Shown one piece after another: positions 7,097 to 42,732 of a DNA stretch of 64,000 nucleotides (positions are counted from its first letter, which is position 1; each line of letters begins with the position of its first letter). The notes under the pieces are model-generated. The model was not told where the DNA came from, ran no database searches, and saw only the letters and a program-made list of their open reading frames with translations. This stretch comes from Proteus penneri. Its GTDB lineage: Bacteria > Pseudomonadota > Gammaproteobacteria > Enterobacterales > Enterobacteriaceae. The position numbers and the translations under genes are program-made. The stretch lies in contig NZ_PHFJ01000006.1 of NCBI RefSeq assembly GCF_003144535.1, forward strand, positions 62,001 to 126,000, given 5' to 3'.

Positions 7097-8359
7097 ATGA
7101 ATTATAAAATCTTCATCAAATTTTTATCGTATTTATGGCTAGGAGGAATAGCATCTGCATTTTTTGCATTCATTACTCAAGTGATATTAGCAAGATACAT
7201 GAATATTCCTGAGTTTGGCATGTTTAATTCAGGAGTAATTCTTATGGTAATTATTTCGACTATCTATGGATTTGGAACTGATGCTGCACTCTTAAAAGTA
7301 TTTGGGAAATCATATAAGTATGGGCTTTCATATACAAGACCTTTAATTGTATATCTAATCTTTTCAGCCATAGCACTTACCTGTATTTCTTTTGTCTATA
7401 TTTATATTTTGTTTCCTAACGATTACTCTCTTAATGCATACAAACTAATACCAACATTCATAGCAATATCTTTACTGAATGTAAAGTTTTCCATATTACA
7501 GATAGAAAAAAGGTTTGAATATTTATCTTTTTGTCAAATATTATTAAATGGAAGTAGGTTATTATTTGTAATTATTTATTTTTTATTGGAAAAAGACTTA
7601 ACTAGTGGGATTTATAATATATTTTTTTATTCTTCTATTCTTCTAATAGTCTTTTGCATCCCTGATTTAATGCGTTTAATCAATAAGAGTAAAAAAATCC
7701 CACAAAAAAATCTAATCTCTTTTATTTTAATGATCTTGCCATTTGGTATTATTACTAGCACTTTTGCAATATACTCTCAATCAATAATAATAATCACCAA
7801 TAGTTTACTAAGTAAAGAGGTTGCAGGTTATTTATCTGTAGCTTTAAACATTATGTTAGCTATATATATATTGCCTGTTGTTGTATATCAAAAAATATTA
7901 TTACCCATGTTTCATAGGCAGGCCTTTCATGATGAAAATAAATTATTACATAATTATCAAGAGGGTTGTAAATATATGTTGTTAATTGGAATTATTATAT
8001 TTACATTCATTTTTTTCTTCTCCGAAAAGCTTATTATTTTAATATTTGGCATTGAGTACAAAGAAGCTGCATATATTGTTAAATATATTTCATTTTGTAT
8101 TCCTCTAAGATTTCTAAGTTCAAATGCTGGAGCTATTTTATCTACAAAAAATCTAGTATATAAAAAAATGTTCAGTACTGTACTATTAAGCGTTATAGCT
8201 GTAATAACATCTTACTACTTATTAAAAACCTTTAATTTAAAAGGAATAATTTTATCTATTTTATTAAATGAAGTTCTTATGTTTATATTGTATTTTTATA
8301 TGTTATGGAAATACTCATTTGGTAATAACACCTTTAAAAATTGGCTTTCAATAAAATGA
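7097..8359 (+). CDS. Wzx-like polysaccharide flippase (oligosaccharide repeat-unit transporter)
   Basis: A 420-residue, strongly hydrophobic protein with about 12 membrane segments. The N-terminal pattern (FLSYLWLGGIASAFFAFITQ, then ILARYMNIPEFGMFNSG) is typical of the MOP/PST flippases that move lipid-linked repeat units across the inner membrane. It is the first gene after the ops element. Its stop overlaps the next start as ATGA. By eye the GC content is far below that of the core genes, as is usual for transferred O-antigen or capsule clusters. The substrate is unknown. Confidence 0.85.
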   Translation: MNYKIFIKFLSYLWLGGIASAFFAFITQVILARYMNIPEFGMFNSGVILMVIISTIYGFGTDAALLKVFGKSYKYGLSYTRPLIVYLIFSAIALTCISFVYIYILFPNDYSLNAYKLIPTFIAISLLNVKFSILQIEKRFEYLSFCQILLNGSRLLFVIIYFLLEKDLTSGIYNIFFYSSILLIVFCIPDLMRLINKSKKIPQKNLISFILMILPFGIITSTFAIYSQSIIIITNSLLSKEVAGYLSVALNIMLAIYILPVVVYQKILLPMFHRQAFHDENKLLHNYQEGCKYMLLIGIIIFTFIFFFSEKLIILIFGIEYKEAAYIVKYISFCIPLRFLSSNAGAILSTKNLVYKKMFSTVLLSVIAVITSYYLLKTFNLKGIILSILLNEVLMFILYFYMLWKYSFGNNTFKNWLSIK

Positions 8360-9312
8360 TTAATTTAATAAAACGATATGGTAGAGTTCTCATGGGATTA
8401 AGAGGTTTCATGTATGATTTCAATCGGTTTTTAAGATTTAATGCATGGAATTTTAAATGCTCAAATGCAAAAATGAGACAATATCACCTAGCGAAACTAA
8501 CTCATACACTAGAGAAAAGTATGAGTTTTAAGGATAAGAGGGCTGGAGCTGGGTATACAAATGCAAAAAAAATACAGGAGATATTGATAGAAGTCGATAA
8601 CAACAACTACGAAAAAAATTTTAATGATTTTCTAGCTCTCCAAACCTTGAAAAAATTTTGTCTAGAATCAAAGGATGCTGATAAAAAATTTAGTAATATT
8701 TACCAAGAATTACCTAACTGGGATGACGCGTTTACTGATTATGGTATTTACTCTTTAAGCAAAGAAGAGATTAGCCGTGGTCAACTAGAGAATCCTGAAG
8801 ATTTTTTTAACTCTCGATATACACTACGAGATTTTAGTAGCATTATTATTTCATCTGAAATAATTGATAGAGCTTTAAATTTAGCTCAAAAAACTCCTTC
8901 ATCTTGCAATATGCAACCATGGCATGTTTATATTTTGAACAATAGGGAAAATATTGATATCGCTCTGAGCTACCAAACTGGAAATAAAGGATTTACAAAT
9001 AATATTCATAATTTAATGATTATTACATCAGATCAATTGTCTTTTATATCATCATCTGAAAGATATCAACACTGGATTGATGGTGGATTATATGCAATGT
9101 CATTAATTTATGCATTTCACTCACTTGGAATTGCTACTTGTAGTTTAAATTGGAGTGAAAACCCCCAAAAAGATATCGCTATTAGAAAAGTATTAAATAT
9201 TAACGAACATCATTCTATTATTATGATGATTGCATTTGGGTATCCTTGCGAAAATAACTTAGTTTGTGTATCGCCACGGAAAAATATTAAAAACATAAAA
9301 ACTGAGATTTAG
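8356..9312 (+). CDS. Nitroreductase-family protein in polysaccharide operon
   Basis: A 318-residue protein with an N-terminal extension of about 150 residues, followed by a nitroreductase-type flavin fold. Visible signatures are SRYTLRDF at residues 153-160, TPSSCNMQPWHVYI shortly after, and a C-terminal GGLYAMSLIYAFHSLGIATC..GYP segment. ATG 8356 overlaps the flippase stop; an upstream TTG at 8341 is less likely. Relatives are often found beside pyruvyl-transferase-family genes in glycan clusters, as here, but their reaction is not established. FMN-dependent redox chemistry on a sugar or its substituent is inference. Confidence 0.75.
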   Translation: MINLIKRYGRVLMGLRGFMYDFNRFLRFNAWNFKCSNAKMRQYHLAKLTHTLEKSMSFKDKRAGAGYTNAKKIQEILIEVDNNNYEKNFNDFLALQTLKKFCLESKDADKKFSNIYQELPNWDDAFTDYGIYSLSKEEISRGQLENPEDFFNSRYTLRDFSSIIISSEIIDRALNLAQKTPSSCNMQPWHVYILNNRENIDIALSYQTGNKGFTNNIHNLMIITSDQLSFISSSERYQHWIDGGLYAMSLIYAFHSLGIATCSLNWSENPQKDIAIRKVLNINEHHSIIMMIAFGYPCENNLVCVSPRKNIKNIKTEI

Positions 9313-9318
9313 TATAAT

Positions 9319-10422
9319 ATGAGAATTGGAATTGTCACAATACATAAAGCCAATAACTATGGTGCAGTCTTACAAGCAACAGCAACAGGAATTTATTTAA
9401 AAAAATATGGTAGTGTGTTTTATATAAACAATAATGATAGTAAATATTTGCAAGAACAATTAAATTTAATACGGTTTTCTTTTTCTATTAAAGGAATATT
9501 AAGAACATTAAAAGATATTTTGAGGGTTAAGAATCGATATTATTCGCTTAATAAATTCAAAAAACATTTTGAAAAATATTATAATGAATTGGATGTTAAA
9601 AATAATATAAGTGAAATAAAGAAGCTAAATGTTATTGTGTGTGGTAGCGATCAAATTTGGAACCCTCAATGTACTAATGGAAATGATGATATTAATGGAT
9701 ATTATTTTTTAGATTTTGCTGGTGAAGAAACTATTCTGTTTTCTTATGCTAGCAGTGCAGGGTCATACCAATATGATGATAGCCAACTAGCTAAAATAAA
9801 AAGCTACTTGAATAAATTCTCCAAGATAGGTGTACGAGAGATAGATTTATCTAACACACTAAATAAAAAAATAAATGTTAATAGCCAAGTAGTTTTGGAT
9901 CCAACATTATTAATCAGTAAAGAAGATTGGGATAATTTGCCTAGAGAAAAAATAAAAAATTTACCTCAAAAGTATATTTTTGTATACATAATAAATCATA
10001 ATGTAAATACTGACTCTATAATCAAAGAAATCAGCTCTAAATATAATCTTAAGATAGTATCCTTAACCCAAGAAATTTCTCCTAATCATAATGCTGATAT
10101 ATATATTAAAGATGTTGGCCCTTTAAGCCTTATTGAACTTATTCAAAAATCGAATTATGTTGTAACTGATTCATTTCATGGTTGTTGTATATCCATAACA
10201 TACGAAAAGCAATTTTTAGTAATTCATCCAGGAAAGGGGAAAATAAACAGGATATCTAGCTTGTTTGATGCACTTAATATAACTGAAAATAATATTTTAA
10301 ATGAAAAGACGGATATAGAAAATATTAACGATATTGATTATGATATTCTAAATAAAAATCTTATATCATTACGTAGTTCCAGTGTTTCTTTAATCGATGA
10401 AGCAATAGATAGTAAGATATAA
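9319..10422 (+). CDS. Polysaccharide pyruvyl transferase family protein
   Basis: A 367-residue protein of the family that adds ketal-linked pyruvate from phosphoenolpyruvate to sugars of exopolysaccharides. The N-terminus MRIGIVTIHKANNYGAVLQA, CGSDQIWNP at residues 108-116 and TDSFHG at 283-288 are the family hallmarks. It starts six bases after the nitroreductase-like gene and is clearly in the same operon. Some family members have other roles, so pyruvylation of the glycan is likely but not proven. Confidence 0.85.
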   Translation: MRIGIVTIHKANNYGAVLQATATGIYLKKYGSVFYINNNDSKYLQEQLNLIRFSFSIKGILRTLKDILRVKNRYYSLNKFKKHFEKYYNELDVKNNISEIKKLNVIVCGSDQIWNPQCTNGNDDINGYYFLDFAGEETILFSYASSAGSYQYDDSQLAKIKSYLNKFSKIGVREIDLSNTLNKKINVNSQVVLDPTLLISKEDWDNLPREKIKNLPQKYIFVYIINHNVNTDSIIKEISSKYNLKIVSLTQEISPNHNADIYIKDVGPLSLIELIQKSNYVVTDSFHGCCISITYEKQFLVIHPGKGKINRISSLFDALNITENNILNEKTDIENINDIDYDILNKNLISLRSSSVSLIDEAIDSKI

Positions 10423-10439
10423 AAAGGTTATTTTCTTCT

Positions 10440-11249
10440 GTGATAAAAATAATGAGTGATATTACCGTAATTATACCATACTATAATTCAACTGATACAA
10501 TAGAGCGAGCGTTAGACTCGGTTTATTGTCAAACTGTCTCTGCGGCTGCTATTATTATTGTAGATGATAATAGCAGGCATTCTTCATTAGAGTACCTATA
10601 TCAATTAATTAAACGCAAATACGACTTAACTATGATACCCATTGATGTCATTGTACAAGAAAAAAATAATGGACCTGCAAAAGCAAGAAATATAGGTTGG
10701 AATCTTGCAAAAACTAGTTTTATTGCTTTTTTAGATTCTGATGATTCGTGGCATCATAAGAAATTAGAAATCCAATTAAAATATTTTTTAGATGATCCCT
10801 CATTGATAATGTGTGGTCATAAAATGAAAGTTATTACTGCGGATAGTTGTCATCATCTAAATATTGAAGATTTCAATTATAAAACAATTAGCAAAAATTT
10901 GATTTTATCTAAAAATTATTTTCAAACACCTAGTGTAATTATCCGAAATAATATCCAAAATCGATTTCCTGAATATCAGAGATTTAGCGAAGATTACTAC
11001 TTATGGATAGATATTATTTTAGATAATCATAAATCAATATATTTATCTGAACCTTTAGCATTCTGCCATAAACCTTTTTATGGTTCTTCAGGTTTAAGTG
11101 CTAATTTATTGAGTATGGAAAAAAGTGAGCTTAAAAATTATTTAATGTTTTACAAAAAAAATAAAATCAATTTATCCGATCTTGTTTTTTTTAGCACATT
11201 ATCAATATGTAAATTTTTAGTACGATTAATAAAAACAAGGTTGAAGTAA
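10440..11249 (+). CDS. Family 2 glycosyltransferase
   Basis: A GT-A fold inverting glycosyltransferase of about 269 residues. It has the N-terminal ITVIIPYYNSTDTIERALDSV strand, a DSDD metal/nucleotide-sugar motif at residues 99-102 and a downstream SEDYYLW acceptor-side motif. The start is uncertain: GTG 10440 or ATG 10452 (MSDITVII). AAAAGG at 10422-10427 is closer to the GTG. It would add one sugar to the lipid-linked repeat unit at the cytoplasmic face. Donor and linkage cannot be told. Confidence 0.88.
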   Translation: MIKIMSDITVIIPYYNSTDTIERALDSVYCQTVSAAAIIIVDDNSRHSSLEYLYQLIKRKYDLTMIPIDVIVQEKNNGPAKARNIGWNLAKTSFIAFLDSDDSWHHKKLEIQLKYFLDDPSLIMCGHKMKVITADSCHHLNIEDFNYKTISKNLILSKNYFQTPSVIIRNNIQNRFPEYQRFSEDYYLWIDIILDNHKSIYLSEPLAFCHKPFYGSSGLSANLLSMEKSELKNYLMFYKKNKINLSDLVFFSTLSICKFLVRLIKTRLK

Positions 11250-12236
11250 ATGCCTAAGCATTCCTTTCACCAAAAATTGATATTTCTCTTGGCAATAATT
11301 ATTGCTACAGTCCCATTTTATTACCTAAAACCATTTCAAGATTCTCTAATTTATTGGGAACAAGCCAAATTAATTTGGAGTGATGGTATTATTACAACCA
11401 TAGAGGAAATTTATAAACAAACTAACAAAGTAGAACCTTTAATACTGATTACTTTTTATCTTGAGGGATTATTGGGATTAACTGATTCAGGTCTGTTTAT
11501 ATTTTCAAATATTCTAATTTGTAATATATTGATTATAATAAGCGCAATTAAAATTTTAAAATTAAACAATTTGACTTTTAAGGTACATTTTGTTTTATTA
11601 ATTTTAATTAGTTATCTAATTATATCTAATACTCTATATATTTGGAGGAGTATATATGCTATTTGCTTTCTGGTTCTATGTATTACAAACGATAAGTTAA
11701 AGTATAAAATATTTTTTTTTGTACTCTCAGTTTTATCCCATAAATCTATTATTTTGTTCTGTTTTATTTATTTTGTTCTATGTAAAATTCCTAATAAAAG
11801 CAAAAAAAATATACTAGCTTATTCTGGTGTAATAGGTTTATCCTTATACTTTATAATAAATGAATTTATGTTTTTATCATATTTCATTTCTGGTGATGTT
11901 TCTGTTTTTTTCAGCTCAGGACAAGATACATTAATCCGAATATTTATTAATATATACTGCGTGTTAATATTGTTGTTGATTGTTTCAAAAAATAACACTC
12001 ATTATAATCTCGTAAATTTTAGTATATTTTTGCTTGTTATTTCACTATTTTTAAATTTTAACTGGCAAATAATGTGTAGAATTTCAGCTCCAGCATTAAT
12101 ACTAACTCCAATTCTAGCATTGAGTACTATGCCTGGTAAGCAAAAAAAAATTATAATTTATTCAGCCTTATTTGTAAGCCTAATACCGGCATTTCGTATA
12201 TTTTATTTAATTATATTTGACACGTATCCAAACTAA
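11250..12236 (+). CDS. EpsG/Wzy-like polysaccharide polymerase
   Basis: A 328-residue multi-pass membrane protein. It opens with a membrane segment, then a periplasmic stretch with FQDSLIYWEQAKLIW, and later YIWRSIYAICFLVL and SVLSHKSIILF. The arginine and histidine placement (WRS.., HKS) resembles EpsG-family polymerases. The start codon directly abuts the preceding stop (TAAATG). With the flippase it would complete a Wzx/Wzy pathway. Polymerase sequences are very divergent, so the call leans partly on context. Confidence 0.75.
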   Translation: MPKHSFHQKLIFLLAIIIATVPFYYLKPFQDSLIYWEQAKLIWSDGIITTIEEIYKQTNKVEPLILITFYLEGLLGLTDSGLFIFSNILICNILIIISAIKILKLNNLTFKVHFVLLILISYLIISNTLYIWRSIYAICFLVLCITNDKLKYKIFFFVLSVLSHKSIILFCFIYFVLCKIPNKSKKNILAYSGVIGLSLYFIINEFMFLSYFISGDVSVFFSSGQDTLIRIFINIYCVLILLLIVSKNNTHYNLVNFSIFLLVISLFLNFNWQIMCRISAPALILTPILALSTMPGKQKKIIIYSALFVSLIPAFRIFYLIIFDTYPN

Positions 12237-12239
12237 ACT

Positions 12240-13379
12240 ATGAAAAAAATTGCTCATGTTCAATTACTACCTCTTTTAAGTGGTGCTCAAAGAGTTAGCT
12301 TAGATGAATTACAAAGACTCCCTAATGATAAATTTGATAAGTATCTAATCTGTTGTCAAACAGGACCTTTAACTATAGAGGCGGAAAAACTAGGAATCAA
12401 ATGTATAATAATTGATTCTTTAACCAGAGAGATATCACCAATTAAAGATCTAAAATCCTTAATTCATTTAATAAAAATCATTAAAAATTATCGATTTGAT
12501 ATTATTCACACCCATTCATCTAAAACGGGGGTAATAGGGCGTTTAGCTGGATTTATATCAAAAACCCCACTGATTATCCATACGGTTCACGGGTATTCTT
12601 TTCCCGCAGCTAAAAATAAAATTCAATATATAATCTATTATATTATGGAAAGAATCGGTTCGATGTGTGGTAATAAATTAATTTGTCTTCATGAAACAGA
12701 TAAAGAGATTGCAATCCAAAAATTAAAAGTAAAGTCTAATGATATTTATATAATTCCGAATGGTGTTGATGTGAAAAAATATACTCCACCATCAATTGAA
12801 AATAAGCAGCTATATCGTCAATCACTAAACTTATCAAAAGATGATATTGTTATAGGTATGACCGGACGTCTTTGGCTACAAAAAAACCCCATATTTCTTT
12901 TGGAAAATATGCTACCTTTGCTTATAGAGAATAAAAATATTAAAATTTTATTTGTCGGTGACGGTGAGTTAAAAAAAGAATTGGAAAAGTTCATAAATAT
13001 TTATGATTTAAATAAACAAGTATATCTATTGGGTTGGAGAAATGATATAGACCGTATTCTTCAATCTATTGACATATTTACGCTTCCATCTAAGTGGGAA
13101 GGTATGCCTTTAGCTATTTTAGAAGCACAGAGTTCAGGGTTGCCGTGTATTGTTTCAAATATCACAGGAAATAATAATTTAGTATCTAACAATATTGATG
13201 GATTTATATTTAATTTAGAACCTAATAGTGAAGAGTTTAGAGATAAAATAAAAAAATTAATCTATAATAAAGAATTAAGAATAAAGTTAGGTATAAAATC
13301 AAGAGAAAAGGTTATACTGCATCATTCTATTGAACAGAGAATACAAAAGATTGAAATGATTTATGATGAGCTGGCTTAA
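12240..13379 (+). CDS. Family 4 glycosyltransferase
   Basis: A GT-B retaining glycosyltransferase of 379 residues, the last gene of the polysaccharide operon. It has an N-terminal acceptor domain (HVQLLPLLSGAQRVSLDEL), IIHTHSSKTGVIGRLAG near residues 83-98, IIPNGVDVKKY before the second domain and the E-x7-E motif at E287/E295 (WEGMPLAILEAQSSG). It begins three bases after the polymerase stop. Specificity is unknown. The gene ends 48 bases before the IS boundary, so any further operon genes may have been removed by the insertion. Confidence 0.9.
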   Translation: MKKIAHVQLLPLLSGAQRVSLDELQRLPNDKFDKYLICCQTGPLTIEAEKLGIKCIIIDSLTREISPIKDLKSLIHLIKIIKNYRFDIIHTHSSKTGVIGRLAGFISKTPLIIHTVHGYSFPAAKNKIQYIIYYIMERIGSMCGNKLICLHETDKEIAIQKLKVKSNDIYIIPNGVDVKKYTPPSIENKQLYRQSLNLSKDDIVIGMTGRLWLQKNPIFLLENMLPLLIENKNIKILFVGDGELKKELEKFINIYDLNKQVYLLGWRNDIDRILQSIDIFTLPSKWEGMPLAILEAQSSGLPCIVSNITGNNNLVSNNIDGFIFNLEPNSEEFRDKIKKLIYNKELRIKLGIKSREKVILHHSIEQRIQKIEMIYDELA

Positions 13380-35453: not shown

Positions 35454-35918
35454 GTGAATTACCATCAATATTACCCTGTTGATGTTGTCAATGGTCCAGG
35501 TACTCGTTGCACCCTGTTTGTTTCAGGGTGCATACACCAATGCCGAGGCTGTTATAACAAATCAACGTGGTCATTAACGTCAGGCAAGCCATTTACACAA
35601 GAGATGGAAGATCAGATTATTGCCGATCTTCAAGACAGTCGAATCAAACGACAAGGATTATCACTTTCAGGTGGCGATCCCCTACACCCTCAAAATCTTT
35701 CTGCTATATTAAAATTGGTAAAACGTGTTAAAACGCAATGCCCTGAAAAAGATATTTGGGTTTGGACTGGCTATTTGCTAGCAGACTTAACCCCAGAGCA
35801 GCAAGAAGTCGTTAACTATATTAACGTACTGATTGATGGAAAATTCATACAAGAACTTTATGATCCCGCATTACTGTGGCGTGGTAGTAGTAATCAGGTG
35901 ATCCATAAGTTGAAATAA
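35454..35918 (+). CDS. nrdG: Anaerobic ribonucleotide reductase activating enzyme NrdG
   Basis: Radical-SAM activase that installs the glycyl radical on NrdD. 154 residues from GTG 35454 (MNYHQYYPVDVVNGPGTRCTLFVSGC). The 4Fe-4S cluster motif is CIHQCRGC (CX3CX2C), with LSLSGGDPL for SAM binding. It is co-transcribed with nrdD. Confidence 0.96.
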   Translation: MNYHQYYPVDVVNGPGTRCTLFVSGCIHQCRGCYNKSTWSLTSGKPFTQEMEDQIIADLQDSRIKRQGLSLSGGDPLHPQNLSAILKLVKRVKTQCPEKDIWVWTGYLLADLTPEQQEVVNYINVLIDGKFIQELYDPALLWRGSSNQVIHKLK

Positions 35919-35944
35919 TACACATTGAATTAACTGGAGGATGT

Positions 35945-36154
35945 ATGCCTTTAAGTGATAATAAATATGTAAGCTTTTCTGAAGATCATGAACTGAACTA
36001 CCATTTAAAAAAATGGGGTAAGAAGCAGTCTAAAGCGAATCGAGAACAACTCGTGAAGCTAGGCACTGAATTGAAAAAGAAACTCGGTGTTAAACATCTT
36101 CAACACACTGAAATAGATGCAGAGATAGAAAAAAATCTTTCATCATTTGAATAA
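35945..36154 (+). CDS. Small uncharacterised protein (69 residues)
   Basis: A lysine-rich, probably helical soluble protein with AACTGGAGGATGT as ribosome site. I do not recognise it with confidence. The pattern LNYHLKKWGKKQSKANREQLVKLG loosely recalls DUF3606-type proteins. It is the last gene before the foreign 36-41 kb segment and 26 bases after nrdG, so it may share the nrdDG transcript. Confidence 0.55.
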   Translation: MPLSDNKYVSFSEDHELNYHLKKWGKKQSKANREQLVKLGTELKKKLGVKHLQHTEIDAEIEKNLSSFE

Positions 36155-36187
36155 CACCTAAAAGCCCATTTTTTGAAGTGGATCCTT

Positions 36188-36258
36188 GAAATTGGACACT
36201 TTTATTAAGTAACTTGTAAGGCCTGATTTCGATATTCAACTGGGATCAGGCCTTTTAA
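36188..36258 (-). pseudogene. Remnant 3' tail of an IS3-family transposase
   Basis: On the minus strand the only surviving coding piece reads KGLIPVEYRNQALQVT and a stop, the typical C-terminus of IS3-family OrfB. A TGTCCAATTTCAAGG stretch like a terminal repeat follows. It marks an old IS at the left edge of the biosynthetic-type cluster. The GGCCTGAT..ATCAGGCC arms can also pair as a hairpin. The remaining stretch to 36590 is extremely AT-rich with no gene seen. Confidence 0.6.
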
Positions 36259-36590
36259 TATAATTAATAATTATTTAAATATTCTCATTTTTCATTTCAA
36301 CTATAAATTTAATTAAATATATTTAAAATAAAAATCATTAAAAATATCAAAATAAAAAATAAAATAATTATTATTAAATCAATATATTTAAATATAATTA
36401 AAATACAAAGAAATTAAAATAACCGCATCTATTAATAAAAGATTCAATTTAGTAAAAAAAATATTGATCAGGATTTTTTTATGTAATATGTTTTTAACAA
36501 CCCATATTTTAATTAAAGATTTAAAATTATGATTGCATTATTTATCTTTTCTATAATTCCAGATAGAAATTAAATTAGAGATCAATAAAT

Positions 36591-37376
36591 ATGAAATACA
36601 TACATCATTATCTAAAGCGATTAAATATAGATCTTCCATTAGTTGCAAATTATAAATTTCTATCTAAATTTCATCATGCACATTTTTATTCTATTCCGTT
36701 TGAAAATATTGAAATGAAAAAAAGCACTTTTAAACTTCTTTCTTATCAAAATATTGCAAATAGAATAATATTTAATAAAAGAGGTGGCATTTGTTTTGAT
36801 TTTTCTATTTTAATTAAATCATTCTTTGAGCACATTGGCTACTCGTATAGTGTTAGGTTAGCAAGGCTTTTAACTCCATTAATAACACCTACAACACATC
36901 TACTCTTTATTGTAACAATTGATGAAACCAAATGGATATTTGATATTGGATATGGTGCAAAAGGACCTCGCTCACCACTGATGTTGATAGATGGTTATGT
37001 ACATGAGCATTCTTTTCTTTCTTCAAAAGTTAATTGGCATTCTGAATTTGGGTGGATTGTTTCAATAAAGGAAAATAGTCAACATGATGCAATTTGGGAA
37101 AATATATATGCCTTTCACGATATAGAGGCACTAGAACCCGATATAAGTATGGCTCATTTTTACACAATTAATTCCTCAGAAAGTCTTCTTAATACCAATA
37201 TAGTTGCTAGTTTACCAAAAGAAAATGGAAGAATAAGTATCCGAAATAATGTTTTTACTGAAGTTAGAGGATATCTATCTTCATCTTTTCAAATTGCGAA
37301 TAAACGAGAACTATCGGATTTGTTATTAGAAAATTTTGGCATTGAAATTCCCTTTCAACAAATACGAGAGGAATAA
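36591..37376 (+). CDS. Arylamine N-acetyltransferase (NAT)-family acyltransferase
   Basis: 261 residues with the complete NAT catalytic triad: Cys68 in RGGICFD, His103 in TTHLLF and Asp118 in FDIGYG. Canonical enzymes use the same spacing (for example 69/107/122). NAT-fold enzymes acetylate arylamines and in some antibiotic pathways form amide bonds. It is the first of six tightly packed co-directional genes that include an N-oxygenase and an ATP-grasp ligase, so acyl transfer in a biosynthetic pathway, or self-protection by acetylation, is likelier than general drug metabolism. RGGxCxD replaces the usual RGGxCxE. Much more AT-rich than nrdDG. Confidence 0.85.
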   Translation: MKYIHHYLKRLNIDLPLVANYKFLSKFHHAHFYSIPFENIEMKKSTFKLLSYQNIANRIIFNKRGGICFDFSILIKSFFEHIGYSYSVRLARLLTPLITPTTHLLFIVTIDETKWIFDIGYGAKGPRSPLMLIDGYVHEHSFLSSKVNWHSEFGWIVSIKENSQHDAIWENIYAFHDIEALEPDISMAHFYTINSSESLLNTNIVASLPKENGRISIRNNVFTEVRGYLSSSFQIANKRELSDLLLENFGIEIPFQQIREE

Positions 37377-37381
37377 ATTAA

Positions 37382-37945
37382 ATGAGAGCGACTTATCTCA
37401 TCGTTCCTGGATATACAAATTCTGGTGCAGATCATTGGCAATCCTATATGGAAAAAAAATATACCAATGTCACTCGTGTACAACAAAATGATTGGAATAA
37501 TCCCTCCCGTTCTGAGTGGATTGAAAAACTTAACGAAATTATTAATAAAACCGATGGAGATATTATACTTCTTGGTCATAGTTGTGGTGCAGTCACTATT
37601 GCGCAGTGGGCATCTTCTAACAGATGTAACAAAATAAAAGCCATTATCCTTGTAGCACCAGCCGATGTAGATGCTAAATCAGCAATCTCTCCAATTCATC
37701 AGCAACGACCACTACCATCAACACCATTAGGTGTACGATCATTACTGATATATAGCGATAATGATAAATACCTCAGTAAAACTCGTGCACGTGCACTCGC
37801 TGAATTGTGGGGAAGTAAAACATATTGCGTTCAAGGGGCTGGACATATTCATAGCGCATCTGGATATGGCGAATGGATAGAAGGTGAAAAATTATTTGAA
37901 GAATTCACGAGGATCCCATTATTACATACAAGAAAAAAGGTATAA
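37382..37945 (+). CDS. RBBP9/YdeN-family serine hydrolase
   Basis: A 187-residue small alpha/beta hydrolase. The nucleophile elbow is GHSCG with Ser67, an acid follows in YSDNDKY (Asp126 or Asp128), and the base is His155 in AGHIHSASG. Signature features of the family are YLIVPGYTNSGADHWQ and ..GYGEW. It lies five bases after the NAT-like gene with GAGG as ribosome site. In the cluster it could release or trim an intermediate, or detoxify the product; no direct evidence. Confidence 0.82.
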   Translation: MRATYLIVPGYTNSGADHWQSYMEKKYTNVTRVQQNDWNNPSRSEWIEKLNEIINKTDGDIILLGHSCGAVTIAQWASSNRCNKIKAIILVAPADVDAKSAISPIHQQRPLPSTPLGVRSLLIYSDNDKYLSKTRARALAELWGSKTYCVQGAGHIHSASGYGEWIEGEKLFEEFTRIPLLHTRKKV

Positions 37946-37947
37946 CA

Positions 37948-39129
37948 ATGTTTAGAAAGATTAAACATTTCAATCCTATTGTGCTTCACTTTCTTATCGC
38001 AACATTTTTGATGGGATTAAGTAATGGGATATTCGATGCTATATATAATTTTTATCTTGAAACTCGTGGTGTAGACAAGACTACGACAGGTTACATATAT
38101 GCAATAGCAATGGTAATGATGGCTTGTGCCGTAATTCCTCTGATCTATTTGAGTAGACGAATGTCTCAAAAAAAGTTACTCCTTCTTTTTTCATTTGTTT
38201 ATGCAATCCCATTTATTTTACTTCCAATACTGACATCCGTATGGAGTAGTGCTATCGCATTAGGATTTATCCTTTCTGGCATGATAGCTCTCTTATCTTT
38301 GGGAAATTCTTTGATTGGTTCCAACATTAAGGTTGAATATAGAACAACATTATTCAGTTATTTCTTTGTTTCTTACTTATGGGCAGCAATGATAGGTTCA
38401 GTAGTAACCAGTTTAGTAACCTATTATTCTCCCGCAACAGCCTTAACCAATTACCAAGGGCTTCTCATTGCATCTTTTATAGTTTCTCTTTTAATGATTT
38501 ATTTTCGTGCGAAATCTATCCAAGGTATCTCAGAACCTGAACGAGATATTAGAAAATTTACTTGGGATAACAATATGGAGTGGAAGAATTTCGTCGCTCT
38601 ATTCATTGCATCACTACTTCTAGGAGCCTCTATTACTCTCATTTTTCGATTTATAAATATTGTGATTAGCCTAGCTTACTCCATAAATGTCAGTGAAATG
38701 GCCTTAATAATGGGAGGAGATAAAATTGTTAGCATCATTGGTGCATTATGTGCCCCACTTTTAGTTAAAAACTTCCCCCTAAAGCCAACTATTATTATTG
38801 TGGGTATACTAACTGCGTTATGCCTCTATCTAGCCTCATATAATATACCGTTAATCATTTTCACCTCACTCTATTTTATTAGGCTATTTCTCAACTATTG
38901 CCTAATGCCATTATTGGATACTCTTGCAATTACAGGTTTTGCCAAGAAGAGAATGCTTTTATCTACAAGTATACGACAGCTTGCCTTTTATCTGGGTAGT
39001 GCGCTATCTGCTGTCTTTTATGGAAAACTATTAGATGAGGCCCAATGGGAATATACATTAATAATTTCTTCTATTTTCGCACTTATAGGTGCCATTTTTA
39101 TGAGTTTTATTCGCAGGGAAAATAAGTAG
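37948..39129 (+). CDS. Major facilitator superfamily transporter
   Basis: A 393-residue protein with about 12 hydrophobic segments in two halves split by a charged loop near residues 190-215 (GISEPERDIRKFTWDNNMEWKN). It lies two bases after the hydrolase stop, so it is translationally coupled. Its position in a biosynthetic-type operon suggests export of the product. No specific subfamily can be assigned from the sequence read by eye. Confidence 0.82.
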   Translation: MFRKIKHFNPIVLHFLIATFLMGLSNGIFDAIYNFYLETRGVDKTTTGYIYAIAMVMMACAVIPLIYLSRRMSQKKLLLLFSFVYAIPFILLPILTSVWSSAIALGFILSGMIALLSLGNSLIGSNIKVEYRTTLFSYFFVSYLWAAMIGSVVTSLVTYYSPATALTNYQGLLIASFIVSLLMIYFRAKSIQGISEPERDIRKFTWDNNMEWKNFVALFIASLLLGASITLIFRFINIVISLAYSINVSEMALIMGGDKIVSIIGALCAPLLVKNFPLKPTIIIVGILTALCLYLASYNIPLIIFTSLYFIRLFLNYCLMPLLDTLAITGFAKKRMLLSTSIRQLAFYLGSALSAVFYGKLLDEAQWEYTLIISSIFALIGAIFMSFIRRENK

Positions 39130-39156
39130 GAAATTAATATTTAAAAGGAATTAATT

Positions 39157-40062
39157 ATGACAAAGGATATTGTAATACCAGATAGTGAAAATGTTGCATT
39201 TATGCTGAAAAAACTTTCTGCACTCTGGAAAAACCGAGCAGCGGTAAACAACAAACACACTGATTATTCTGAATTAGCTTTTGAACCATCAAAGAGTGAT
39301 TTTAGCGAATCGTTATTGCCATTTCGAAACCATGATGCATGGAGAGAAGCATCTCAAGATATTAAAAGCCGTTGCTTACCTTATGCATGGGGTATTTATA
39401 ACCTAAAAACAATCTATATAGAATGCGATGTCGTGACGCCTGCCTGTGAAGATATTATAAAACGTCCTCCAATAAATTCGATAAATAGAGTGGAATTACA
39501 GGATGTAATGTCCGAAGCCCTTCTGGATGAAGCATTACATACTAGAATGTCAATAATAGCCTGTAACTATATATACGACCGTCGAAGATTAGAGCCTCTA
39601 CATTATACAGATTTTAATTTAATTAAATGTCGCCAGATGATGCTTGCTGATTGTAATGCAGAATGGCAAAGAAGGCTTACTTGTTTTGCAGTAGCATGTG
39701 CGAGCGAAACCCTCATAACTGATTATCTGAAAGTCATGGCTGAAGATAATAGTATTCAAAGACTTTGCCATGAAGTCACAAAAGTTCATGCTCAAGATGA
39801 ATGGAGCCATTCAAGCGTATTCAGCTATGTTGCTTATGATATTGTGCGAGATTTAACCTTTAGTGAACGCAAGCACATGAAAAATATTATGTTAAGAACT
39901 GCTGATTTATTTGCCAATAATGAACTGGGAGCTTGGAAAGAAGCTTTCAGACTTTCTCGCATGCCCTATGCGAGAGAAATCATTGAAGAAACAGATAATT
40001 GTAATGAGATAAATATTTATCTTGAATCTGTGGAAGCTATTATTTCTAGAATTGGCTTATAG
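39157..40062 (+). CDS. AurF/CmlI-type non-heme diiron N-oxygenase
   Basis: A 301-residue protein matching the AurF ligand pattern: Glu89, Glu125 and His128 (DEALH), Glu184 (ASETL), then His211, Glu215 and His218 (HAQDEWSH). The spacings agree with AurF (101/136/139/196/223/227/230) to within a residue. Family members oxidise amines to hydroxylamine, nitroso, nitro or azoxy groups. AAAAGGAATTAATT is the ribosome site. A ferredoxin gene follows within 20 bases and could supply electrons. The natural substrate is unknown. Confidence 0.85.
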   Translation: MTKDIVIPDSENVAFMLKKLSALWKNRAAVNNKHTDYSELAFEPSKSDFSESLLPFRNHDAWREASQDIKSRCLPYAWGIYNLKTIYIECDVVTPACEDIIKRPPINSINRVELQDVMSEALLDEALHTRMSIIACNYIYDRRRLEPLHYTDFNLIKCRQMMLADCNAEWQRRLTCFAVACASETLITDYLKVMAEDNSIQRLCHEVTKVHAQDEWSHSSVFSYVAYDIVRDLTFSERKHMKNIMLRTADLFANNELGAWKEAFRLSRMPYAREIIEETDNCNEINIYLESVEAIISRIGL

Positions 40063-40081
40063 CGCCAATAATGAGCTAAAA

Positions 40082-40354
40082 ATGGAATCTATCTGCATTA
40101 TTCAAGTCCAGGATCTTAATTGTGAATTATTAGTCGATAACAATAAAAGTGTTCTTGATAATCTGTTACATCACAACATTCCTATTAGACACAAATGCCA
40201 TTTGGGAATATGTGGTAGTTGTAAATATAAATTAAAAAATGGAAAAGTCAGAAATAATCCCGATTTTTGTTTATCAGAAAAGGAAATAGCTGAAAATATC
40301 TACCTTGCTTGTTGTTCCTTTCCTGATGAAGATTTCGAGATTGAAATTATATAA
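40082..40354 (+). CDS. Plant-type [2Fe-2S] ferredoxin
   Basis: A 90-residue protein with Cys39-x4-Cys44-x2-Cys47-x29-Cys77 (CHLGICGSC .. LACC), the chloroplast-type 2Fe-2S pattern. The longer frame from 40022 overlaps the oxygenase and adds an unconserved 20 residues; ATG 40082 gives the normal ferredoxin N-terminus. Its position straight after the diiron oxygenase points to a dedicated electron donor. No reductase is encoded in the cluster. Confidence 0.88.
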   Translation: MESICIIQVQDLNCELLVDNNKSVLDNLLHHNIPIRHKCHLGICGSCKYKLKNGKVRNNPDFCLSEKEIAENIYLACCSFPDEDFEIEII

Positions 40355-40363
40355 GGAGGTTAA

Positions 40364-41614
40364 ATGAACGATAAATATGTATTGATCGTAGATCCATTTT
40401 CCAGTGGCGCTATTTTTGCAAATAGAGTTAAAGAACTTTATGGATATAACGTTATTGCTCTGATTACAAATAATAATCTTCCTCCTACGATTGTGTCTAC
40501 GTTCAAGGAAGAGGATTATTCTGCTGTGTTTAATTATGCTTCACATGAAGAAGCTGCACAGCAAATAGAATTAGCACTGGGGCGTGCACCTGATTTCATC
40601 ATATGTGGTTCAGAGCCTGGAGTTCTTATTTTTGATCTACTTTGTCATAGATGGAATCTACTCCCTAATCTATTAAAACTCAGCCAAGCTAGGCGTGATA
40701 AATATCTGATGCAGAAACAATTGATGCTTGATGGGATTCGTTACATTCCTCACTATCGCTCGGGTCAATTATCCAAAATATTAACATGGTGTGAAGAAAA
40801 CCCCTTCAAGGAATATGTAATAAAACCCGTTTGTTCCTTTGGAACCGAAGGTGTATTTTTCTGTAAAAATACGGCTGAAATAAAAAATACATTTAACTTG
40901 TTAATAAATACATTTGATTACTCTGGAAATAAAAACAAAGAATTACTTATTGAACAAAAAATCAATGGTATAGAATATGTAGTAGATGCAGTGAGTAGCA
41001 ATGGTGTACATTTCATTGTAAATATATTTAAGTATCTAAAACAAAAAGTAAATGGCATTCCAATTTATCATCAGATGGTTACGGAGCCTGTTAATCTATT
41101 TCCAGAACTGGTTGACTATACAAAATCTGTACTTACTTCACTCGGTATCAAAAATGGTACTTCACATAATGAGATAATTATGTCTTCAAATGGCCCAGTA
41201 CTGATTGAATCTGGAGCAAGAATGCATGGAGGTCTTGGACCAAGCCTTGTTGAACGATGTAATTCACACTCTCTAATAGATATGAGTCTACTAGTCCGTA
41301 TAGCCCCCCACCAATTCACAGACGCAATTTGCACTTCACCTGTTTTACAACGTTATGCAGTCGAGTATTTTCTCTGCGCCCCCAATCAAGGGCATATAAA
41401 AGAAATAAATATTGAGAAACAGTGTAGTACCTTAAAAAGCTATGGTTTTACCATCTGTAAATACAAACCTAATGATTATTTACAAAAAACGACTGATTTA
41501 GTGACATCTTATGGAAGAATTGTTTTGTTTAATGAAGAATATTTGGCTTTGTCAACCGATGTACAAGTTGTAGCTGATTTAGAAAAAAAAGGAGCATTAA
41601 TTAGTATTATATAA
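40364..41614 (+). CDS. ATP-grasp carboxylate-amine ligase
   Basis: A 416-residue ATP-grasp enzyme. Visible parts are an N-terminal pre-ATP-grasp domain (YVLIVDPFSSGAIFANRVKE), the ATP-binding Lys154 in VIKPVCSFGTEGV, SHNEII at 267-272 and the metal/ATP motif IESGARMHGG with Glu282 and Arg286. The domain order resembles the amino-acid ligases that make dipeptides and amides in small antibiotic clusters. It has a strong ATAAGGAGG ribosome site ten bases after the ferredoxin. It is the last gene of the cluster. The substrates are unknown. Confidence 0.87.
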   Translation: MNDKYVLIVDPFSSGAIFANRVKELYGYNVIALITNNNLPPTIVSTFKEEDYSAVFNYASHEEAAQQIELALGRAPDFIICGSEPGVLIFDLLCHRWNLLPNLLKLSQARRDKYLMQKQLMLDGIRYIPHYRSGQLSKILTWCEENPFKEYVIKPVCSFGTEGVFFCKNTAEIKNTFNLLINTFDYSGNKNKELLIEQKINGIEYVVDAVSSNGVHFIVNIFKYLKQKVNGIPIYHQMVTEPVNLFPELVDYTKSVLTSLGIKNGTSHNEIIMSSNGPVLIESGARMHGGLGPSLVERCNSHSLIDMSLLVRIAPHQFTDAICTSPVLQRYAVEYFLCAPNQGHIKEINIEKQCSTLKSYGFTICKYKPNDYLQKTTDLVTSYGRIVLFNEEYLALSTDVQVVADLEKKGALISII

Positions 41615-41791
41615 CTCACTAAATCTTACGATATTGGTCTTTATATATTTTATCCAGTAGTAGGTTATCCAAATACTTACTTAATCACTCCTGTTATCAA
41701 ATGCGAATCATTTTCAAAAAAGATGGTAAAAGTGATTAGTTTTGTTTTATTATTAACGCCATTCACTATTCTTTTTATGATGATATTTGAT

Positions 41792-42154
41792 ATGAAATTG
41801 GCCCTCTTCTCTGTATTTTCAATGATCTTACTTTCGGGTTGTAGCACTACTTGGGAACCTCAAGGTGCATCAGATTACACGTTACAAGAAGCAAAACTCA
41901 TTTGCGATTTCGATGCCAATACTCGCTACCCTATCCGCAAAGAAGTGCTACAACGGACTGTCTATCGTGATGTACAAAAGACATGTCGTAAGGATGATAA
42001 AGACCATTGTGGTGATAAAAAAACCTACACTGAACGTGTACCCATGACAGAAAGCTATGTTGAAGACATTAATCAAGAAGACAGAAAAACCTTCTACACT
42101 TCTTGTATGTCTTTAAAAGGATGGGAACAAAAAAATCATTATTTTTGGGAATAG
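41792..42154 (+). CDS. Predicted lipoprotein of unknown function
   Basis: A 120-residue precursor starting at ATG 41792 with a lipoprotein signal (MKLALFSVFSMILLSGCSTT). An in-frame start at 41723 would add an unlikely second hydrophobic segment. The mature part has several cysteines and a charged KTCRKDDKDHCGDKKTYTERVP stretch that may be disulphide-linked. It marks the return to core-like DNA after the accessory cluster. I do not recognise the family. Confidence 0.65.
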   Translation: MKLALFSVFSMILLSGCSTTWEPQGASDYTLQEAKLICDFDANTRYPIRKEVLQRTVYRDVQKTCRKDDKDHCGDKKTYTERVPMTESYVEDINQEDRKTFYTSCMSLKGWEQKNHYFWE

Positions 42155-42177
42155 TAGAAAGTTAAGAAAAAATAAGT

Positions 42178-42618
42178 TTAGTCACGCTGCCAATAGAGCT
42201 TAGTTCCAAAGCCTAACTGATTATTGACCATCTTAATTTCTTGTAATTGCAATTCCCATAAAGGCACATGGATGGCGGCTAATGCAACAGGAAAACGTAA
42301 ACAATAATGTTTTCTTGCATTGATGTCGTCCTTACCAGCCAATAAAGCAACCGAACCTGTAAATTGAATACCTTGCAGATCGGATACTGCAATTTCTTGG
42401 GTGCTAATACTTCCTGCAACTAATAAATTTTCCTGCATCATTTGAGCATGCCGTGTTTTCTTTTCAGAAAGAAAAACAAGTCTCATCTGATTTTCATCAA
42501 ACCAATAAAAACAATTAGCACACCAAACATCACTCAATGAACGTGTTGTGCATAAGGTAAATACATGCTTATCACGTATATATTGTTTAATTATTTTGAT
42601 CGAATCTGAAGAAGACAT
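42178..42618 (-). CDS. yhbP: YhbP family protein (UPF0306)
   Basis: A 146-residue protein starting at MSSSDSIKIIKQYIRDKHVFTLCT; ATG 42639 upstream is less likely. The sequence resembles E. coli YhbP, a flavin-binding split-barrel-type protein without a proven reaction (ANCFYWFDENQMRLVFLSEKKTRH, IQFTGSV). It converges with the lipoprotein gene. E. coli also groups yhbP, yhbQ, yhbS, yhbT and yhbUV together, as here. Confidence 0.88.
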   Translation of the reverse strand: MSSSDSIKIIKQYIRDKHVFTLCTTRSLSDVWCANCFYWFDENQMRLVFLSEKKTRHAQMMQENLLVAGSISTQEIAVSDLQGIQFTGSVALLAGKDDINARKHYCLRFPVALAAIHVPLWELQLQEIKMVNNQLGFGTKLYWQRD

Positions 42619-42732
42619 AATATACCTGTATAGACACACAAAGAGACGCTGTTTAGTTGATAATTATATCACCAAAACTAGCGTCTTTCCGAATGTCTCT
42701 TATTGCAGGTTATTTATCTGGAATAGTTAATA

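Follow-up and report, generated by a model that had tools for sequence, protein, structure and literature searches.

The dnfABC genes of Alcaligenes encode Dirammox, a heterotrophic ammonia oxidation in which the substrate of the oxygenase DnfA is disputed. DnfAB preparations were reported to hydroxylate the amide of glutamine, and the resulting hydroxamate to be hydrolysed by DnfC (Miao 2023, as cited in PMC11160463 and PMC11440038); glutamine binding was not found in PMC11440038 itself, where an unidentified intermediate was proposed, and glutamine or the hydroxamate was named again as an intermediate in PMC12575085. DnfB is described in PMC9478400 as an FNR-like part plus a [2Fe-2S] domain. 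In the TsnB6/7/9 cassette of Streptomyces (trichostatin A, benzohydroxamic acid), the AurF-family oxygenase TsnB7 is said, in PMC5719088 and PMC13418202, to make glutamate γ-hydroxamate for the natural product. Dapdiamide is an enterobacterial case of a carrier-free ligase, DdaF. Bacilysin (BacD) and tabtoxin are likewise ATP-grasp dipeptide antibiotics. Here, we describe a six-gene operon at positions 36591-41614 of a 64,000-nucleotide stretch of Proteus DNA (the window), whose contig is part of a 3.77 Mb draft genome of this genus.

The operon shares with dnfABC the order of oxygenase and reductase genes and the seven iron ligands, its oxygenase is nested in the DnfA clade, and the reductases of the sister operons in other hosts have both the FNR part and the [2Fe-2S] domain. 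Unlike dnfABC, it has no DnfC; it adds an ATP-grasp ligase, an arylamine N-acetyltransferase (NAT), a hydrolase and a major facilitator superfamily (MFS) protein, and the reductase of the window is reduced to the [2Fe-2S] part. An AurF-family oxygenase is also common to the TsnB6/7/9 cassette, but the operon has no polyketide synthase (PKS), and neither the AsnB-like hydroxyamidotransferase TsnB9 nor the accessory protein TsnB6 is among the six genes, the latter not having been searched by sequence. As in the dapdiamide system, a carrier-free ligase of the same superfamily adjoins an α/β hydrolase gene; however, diaminopropionate, fumarate-ligase and AsnB genes are lacking from the operon, and no AurF-type oxygenase was seen at the ddaF locus.

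The six-gene operon and its DnfA-type oxygenase

All six open reading frames (ORFs) are on the + strand, with 5, 2, 27, 19 and 9 bases between successive ones. Gene 1 (36591-37376, 261 aa) encodes a member of the NAT family, as indicated by the Acetyltransf_2 domain (PF00797, 124.5 bits) and the triad C68/H103/D118; its best solved relative was 1e2t, named N-hydroxyarylamine O-acetyltransferase (E 1.4e-19), and it scored 84.5 bits against the equivalog of that name (NF011621), below the 493-bit cut-off. Gene 2 (37382-37945, 187 aa) encodes a small serine α/β hydrolase (Ser_hydrolase PF06821, 184.8 bits) with a GHSCG nucleophile motif and the solved relative 3bdv (DUF1234, E 2.4e-24), and gene 3 (37948-39129, 393 aa) a predicted MFS exporter (MFS_1 PF07690, 82.5 bits) with 66-69% identity to its counterparts in the other intact operons. 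These are followed by the diiron N-oxygenase (gene 4, 39157-40062, 301 aa; AurF PF11583, 152.6 bits), a [2Fe-2S] ferredoxin domain (gene 5, 40082-40354, 90 aa; Fer2 PF00111, 48.8 bits) and a protein similar to ATP-grasp L-amino-acid (dipeptide) ligases (gene 6, 40364-41614, 416 aa; ATP-grasp_4 PF13535, 55.6 bits). Every Pfam score exceeded the curated cut-off of the family, and none of the six proteins matched carrier-protein, non-ribosomal peptide synthetase (NRPS) or PKS families in this search. The guanine-plus-cytosine (GC) fraction was 0.339 in the operon, 0.411 in the upstream nrdD and 0.378 in the whole window. The Rfam search of positions 35800-42000 found no RNA, promoter-like sites (22) were fewer than the shuffle mean of 31.0, and terminator-like sites equalled the shuffles (2 observed, 2.0 expected).

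A sequence-only reading of this locus had listed six co-directional genes with these family labels, no carrier protein, NRPS or PKS, and a base composition unlike that of the flanking core genes, and all of this was borne out. For the gaps it had given 2-28 bases, and those measured are 2-27. No published description of the six-gene set was found in the open-licence PMC literature, and to that extent the operon is undescribed, as that reading had proposed; the AurF and ferredoxin labels have to be replaced by a DnfA-type oxygenase and a truncated DnfB, respectively.

All seven diiron ligands expected from that reading are present in gene 4 (E89, E125, H128, E184, H211, E215 and H218), and its AurF score compares with a threshold of 29.6 bits. 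The ligand positions were invariant in all 42 aligned sequences, including that of the window. The alignment of the relatives took in, besides the window and L005, 40 of the loci found in the genome scan described below, which gave 46 (those omitted are L049, L070, L071, L074, L075 and L088). Gene 4 was 53-68% identical to the DnfA-type enzymes of the main dnfABC clade, 65.3% to the homologue of Alcaligenes faecalis AU14 (L057), and 22.8-29.5% to five other AurF-family members, with TsnB7 of S. angustmyceticus at 22.8%. In agreement, six operon oxygenases formed a single clade (100/100) nested within the dnfABC sequences in a tree of 45 rows. The tree was built from the window, the five other family members and 39 relatives, namely L005 plus 38 loci of the scan, from which L067 and L068 were omitted in addition to the six named above; the outer rows sit on very long branches, and placement was used only inside the DnfA clade. 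Moreover, of the 70 columns close to the iron ligands, 48 had one residue common to the 6 operon sequences and at least 90% of 27 dnfABC sequences, compared with 78 of 231 columns elsewhere, and clade-specific switches between both groups numbered 1 near the ligands and 7 elsewhere; the Pseudomonas syringae-group and marine sequences were kept apart from the 27. Judged by its sequence, gene 4 is DnfA-type and not near the aryl-amine oxygenases.

The same six genes were found in the same order in six other loci (L005, L006, L044, L045, L046 and L047), so the arrangement is not due to chance, and the six-gene operon is real and recurrent. The hosts are Pantoea agglomerans megaplasmids, Rouxiella silvae, Ewingella americana, Pectobacterium versatile and Pectobacterium brasiliense. 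A tblastn search of plasmids with the oxygenase gave 12 records, 3 of them P. agglomerans megaplasmids at 77%, and the two of these three that were inspected had the identical order. The genome scan gave 46 loci, in which Rouxiella, Ewingella and both Pectobacterium had the full operon and Proteus columbae a broken one. Flanking ORFs of at least 70 residues, taken up to 8 kb away (only 188 bases on the left side in Rouxiella), had none in common between genera at E 1e-5, and sharing was limited to the pair of Pantoea plasmids and the pair of Pectobacterium genomes, each among themselves. Because no flanking gene is common between genera, the unit is the six genes, located in different places, and horizontal acquisition of the operon is part of the best explanation. 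When 394 genomes of the order were searched with the NAT at E 1e-45, only 2 had a match, its own and that of Pectobacterium versatile, both times within the operon, and the ligase was found at E 1e-40 in 4 of 369 genomes of the class, its own and three at 29-32%; against plasmids, the ligase matched Pantoea at 67% and then at most 30% among the best 30 of 167 matches. Close forms of both proteins thus appear, in the collections searched, to have been seen only with the operon.

A DnfC-like amidotransferase accompanied the oxygenase in 38 of 46 loci; the main clade accounts for 32 of these and a distant marine clade (oxygenase 35-38%) for 6. It was present in 38 of the 41 loci outside the operon group, the 3 without it belonging to the P. 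syringae group. In contrast, the intact six-gene loci outside the window had the reductase and no DnfC: tblastn with the amidotransferase, at a threshold of E 0.01, gave no match in the 64 kb window and none in seven sister-operon loci, of which two come from one genome, and in the whole genome of the window its best match, part of a 534-residue frame, extended over just 99 residues with 35% identity. The reductase was matched over at least 200 residues in 45 of the 46 loci, the exception being P. columbae.

Other gene settings were seen in the scan. In the P. syringae group (L077, L078 and L079), a third DnfA-type setting consists of the oxygenase, a putative TauE-like membrane protein and the full reductase, without DnfC, and in L077 and L078 this set comes after a putative dihydrodipicolinate-synthase-like gene. 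In marine gammaproteobacteria (L083-L087 and L089), distant DnfA relatives (35-38%) are divergent from the reductase and near the DnfC-like amidotransferase and a putative selenium-binding-protein-like gene. The amidotransferase frame of L015 and L016 continues into a putative peroxidase-like part. Another genus of the same family (L003, genome G184) has an AurF-family gene, about 25-28% identical, that adjoins a putative methyltransferase-like gene and a small unknown gene. No relative of the gene 4 oxygenase was found in the viral_contigs collection, and no DNA match to window positions 38800-41614 in E. coli genomes.

Candidate pathway to a hydroxamate dipeptide

The presence of DnfAB together with the absence of DnfC and the presence of an L-amino-acid-ligase relative suggests that a hydroxamate is retained and built into a dipeptide. 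We therefore put forward, tentatively and as a possibility that falls somewhat short of even chances, that the operon is NRPS-independent, derived from the dnfAB half of Dirammox, and makes a hydroxamate-bearing, glutamine-mimicking dipeptide. By homology, the DnfA-type oxygenase and its [2Fe-2S] electron partner would N-hydroxylate a carboxamide, most likely the glutamine side chain, to give L-glutamate γ-hydroxamate. Since the operon has no DnfC-like amidotransferase, this hydroxamate would not be hydrolysed to hydroxylamine; it would be kept, and the ATP-grasp ligase would join it to another amino acid, giving a dipeptide of the dapdiamide, bacilysin or tabtoxin type. By analogy with these compounds, the peptide would serve to deliver a mimic of glutamine. 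For the remaining genes, we can only guess from their families that the NAT may acylate the hydroxamate oxygen or the α-amine, that the small hydrolase may strip the group added by the NAT or another blocking group, in self-protection or maturation, and that the MFS protein may export the product.

For the ligase step, gene 6 was similar over its full length (residues 4-415) to a solved L-amino acid ligase, 30vh (E 4.9e-46), which places it in this ligase superfamily, and it was 62-67% identical to the ligases of the other operons. It scored 292.3 bits against the PRK07206 family (NF005543), slightly under the 302-bit cut-off, and 187.4 bits against the model of the dapdiamide A synthase DdaF (NF041595), for which the cut-off is 840.

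Several points weigh against the hydroxamate dipeptide. Gene 4 has only 23% identity to TsnB7, the amide oxygenase with the best evidence, so that its substrate does not follow from similarity alone. Because the identity of gene 6 to an annotated ddaF product is low (30.2%) and both curated cut-offs were missed, the substrates proposed for it are tentative; moreover, its predicted model had a mean predicted local distance difference test (pLDDT) score of 61.4, from a five-sequence alignment, too poor for a structure search or active-site inspection. The roles of the NAT and the hydrolase are guesses based on family. Finally, the window copy may be non-functional, given that the FNR part of its reductase is missing and that the copies in the two other Proteus genomes are broken.

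The operon amounts to a natural experiment on DnfA, with DnfAB present, the hydroxylamine-releasing amidotransferase absent and a peptide ligase in its place. If a hydroxamate peptide is made, DnfAB would be an amide N-hydroxylase, and plant-associated enterobacteria would have a compact, carrier-free route to hydroxamates, encoded by a short gene set usable for genome mining.

State and insertion site of the Proteus copy

The reductase has 341-346 residues in the other intact operons, where it matches DnfB over both parts (NAD_binding_6 and Fer2 domains in Pfam for the Pantoea one), versus 90 residues and the [2Fe-2S] part only in the window. Gene 5 aligned to the last part of the full reductases, with 47-57% identity to the enterobacterial ones, and retains the cysteines C39, C44, C47 and C77. 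Over its start codon and the codons just after it, gene 5 aligned with the beginning of the full genes (M-x-x-I/V-C), after which its sequence jumps to the ferredoxin domain. The simplest reading of this alignment is an in-frame internal deletion of the FNR part from a DnfB-type reductase, and gene 5, taken previously for a dedicated ferredoxin, is the C-terminal remnant of that enzyme. As the FNR part is lost, activity of the oxygenase in this genome would need another reductase or has already been lost. The best full-length reductase match elsewhere in the genome, a 336-residue frame at C20:258503-259363 with 22% identity, is a possible substitute.

When 20 Proteus genomes were searched at the DNA level with positions 35454-42639, all 20 had the flanks and 3 had operon sequence (the window's own, G198 and G202). 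The inserted segment, 36172-41672, is missing from the other 17, where the paired flank matches were 23-67 bases apart in 16 and 425 in G210; the left flank match ended earlier in G206, G208, G210, G211 and G215. In the empty site of G199, the flanks join in a terminator-like hairpin (AAAAGCCCAT...ATGGGCTTTTTT). In the window, the left arm of this hairpin ends at about 36171 and the segment then follows, so that its left boundary lies inside the hairpin terminator of the empty site. The copies of G198 and G202 are broken and sit at the same site. In G202 (P. columbae), the exporter gene is cut at its 5′ end, the oxygenase gene is fused at residue 209 to the apparent last codons of the ligase gene, the NAT and hydrolase were not found, and the reductase had no match of at least 200 residues. 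In G198, the NAT and hydrolase genes are open, and a contig end truncates the exporter gene; a second contig begins within the ligase gene and has an end that was read, from its translation, as the N-terminus of an IS3-type transposase, and the oxygenase was not found in this genome. Pairwise ratios of non-synonymous to synonymous substitution (dN/dS) against these congeners were 0.14 for the NAT, 0.17 for the hydrolase, 0.25 (G198) and 0.22 (G202) for the exporter, and 0.15 for the oxygenase part; these low values of four genes would fit constraint during most of the divergence. Ratios against Pantoea and Ewingella are not given, as synonymous sites were saturated.

The Proteus copy may thus be fading, as its reductase is truncated, the two congeneric copies are broken, and the site is empty in 17 of 20 genomes. 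It is conceivable, though we would not call it probable, that it is already a decaying relic, its reductase partly deleted and the rest to follow as in P. columbae and G198, which would be compatible with every chemical reading of the operon. However, the deletion is in frame, the ferredoxin domain is complete with its cysteines and start codon, and the remaining five ORFs are intact. There is also the possible substitute reductase, and in vitro oxidation of hydroxylamine by DnfA is reported in PMC9478400 to proceed without DnfB when NADH and FAD are supplied.

The left edge of the segment, a stretch of 110 bases at 36172-36281, had been taken for the scar of an insertion sequence, which our results do not support. 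It forms a strong hairpin with a short T-run behind, like a terminator, and is single-copy in its own genome. Similar short stretches occur elsewhere in 8 other Proteus genomes, and at L102, the one similar copy with its surroundings listed, no transposase-like ORF of at least 80 residues was found within 3.7 kb. It is possibly a Proteus intergenic terminator-like repeat.

Alternative chemistries and a neighbouring locus

The hydroxamate dipeptide has rivals that start from the same genes. The oxygenase could act on an amine as AurF and CmlI do, so that a small dipeptide or amide would carry a nitro, azoxy or N-hydroxy-amine group. The AurF Pfam score above the cut-off and the identical ligand set agree with this, and so does the predicted model of gene 4 (pLDDT 88.8), for which CmlI and AurF were the nearest folds in the structural comparison. 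Nevertheless, identity in the structural alignment was 25% to CmlI and 22% to AurF, the score against the 4-aminobenzoate N-oxygenase AurF equivalog (NF045603) was 84.2 bits, below the cut-off of 620, and the operon has no arylamine-precursor gene. In this regard, pabB adjoins AurF-family genes in B. glumae and Rhodococcus, but this is no clean contrast, as the locus of the amide oxygenase TsnB7 likewise has pabB nearby. Since the oxygenase sequence groups with DnfA, we consider aryl-amine oxidation unlikely.

We regard as similarly unlikely a route through hydroxylamine, in which the small hydrolase would stand in for DnfC and free hydroxylamine from the hydroxamate. The ATP-grasp enzyme would then couple an acid to hydroxylamine or to an N-hydroxylated amine; alternatively, the operon would simply be a hydroxylamine-making variant of Dirammox. 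The DnfAB ancestry of the oxygenase and the presence of a hydrolase gene are consistent with it, and hydroxylamine has been reported, in PMC9355588, to favour growth of Alcaligenes against other bacteria. However, the hydrolase belongs to PF06821, a family other than that of the DnfC-like amidotransferase (PF00117), and the exporter, ligase and acyltransferase would be superfluous if free hydroxylamine were the product. Very improbable, lastly, is that glutamate γ-hydroxamate would be O-acylated by the NAT into a leaving group, leading to an N-N bond by attack of the α-nitrogen on the hydroxamate nitrogen (6-oxo-piperazate) or to a Lossen-type rearrangement of the acyl group; the operon would then be a carrier-free pathway, derived from Dirammox, to a dipeptide antimetabolite that is reactive or cyclic.

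Elsewhere in the window, positions 7097-13379 hold six + strand genes that are AT-rich, with about 26-28% GC. They encode a polysaccharide-export protein (flippase-type), a nitroreductase-family protein, a polysaccharide pyruvyl transferase, two glycosyltransferases and one protein without a Pfam match, and the region looks like a surface-polysaccharide locus containing a nitroreductase-family member.

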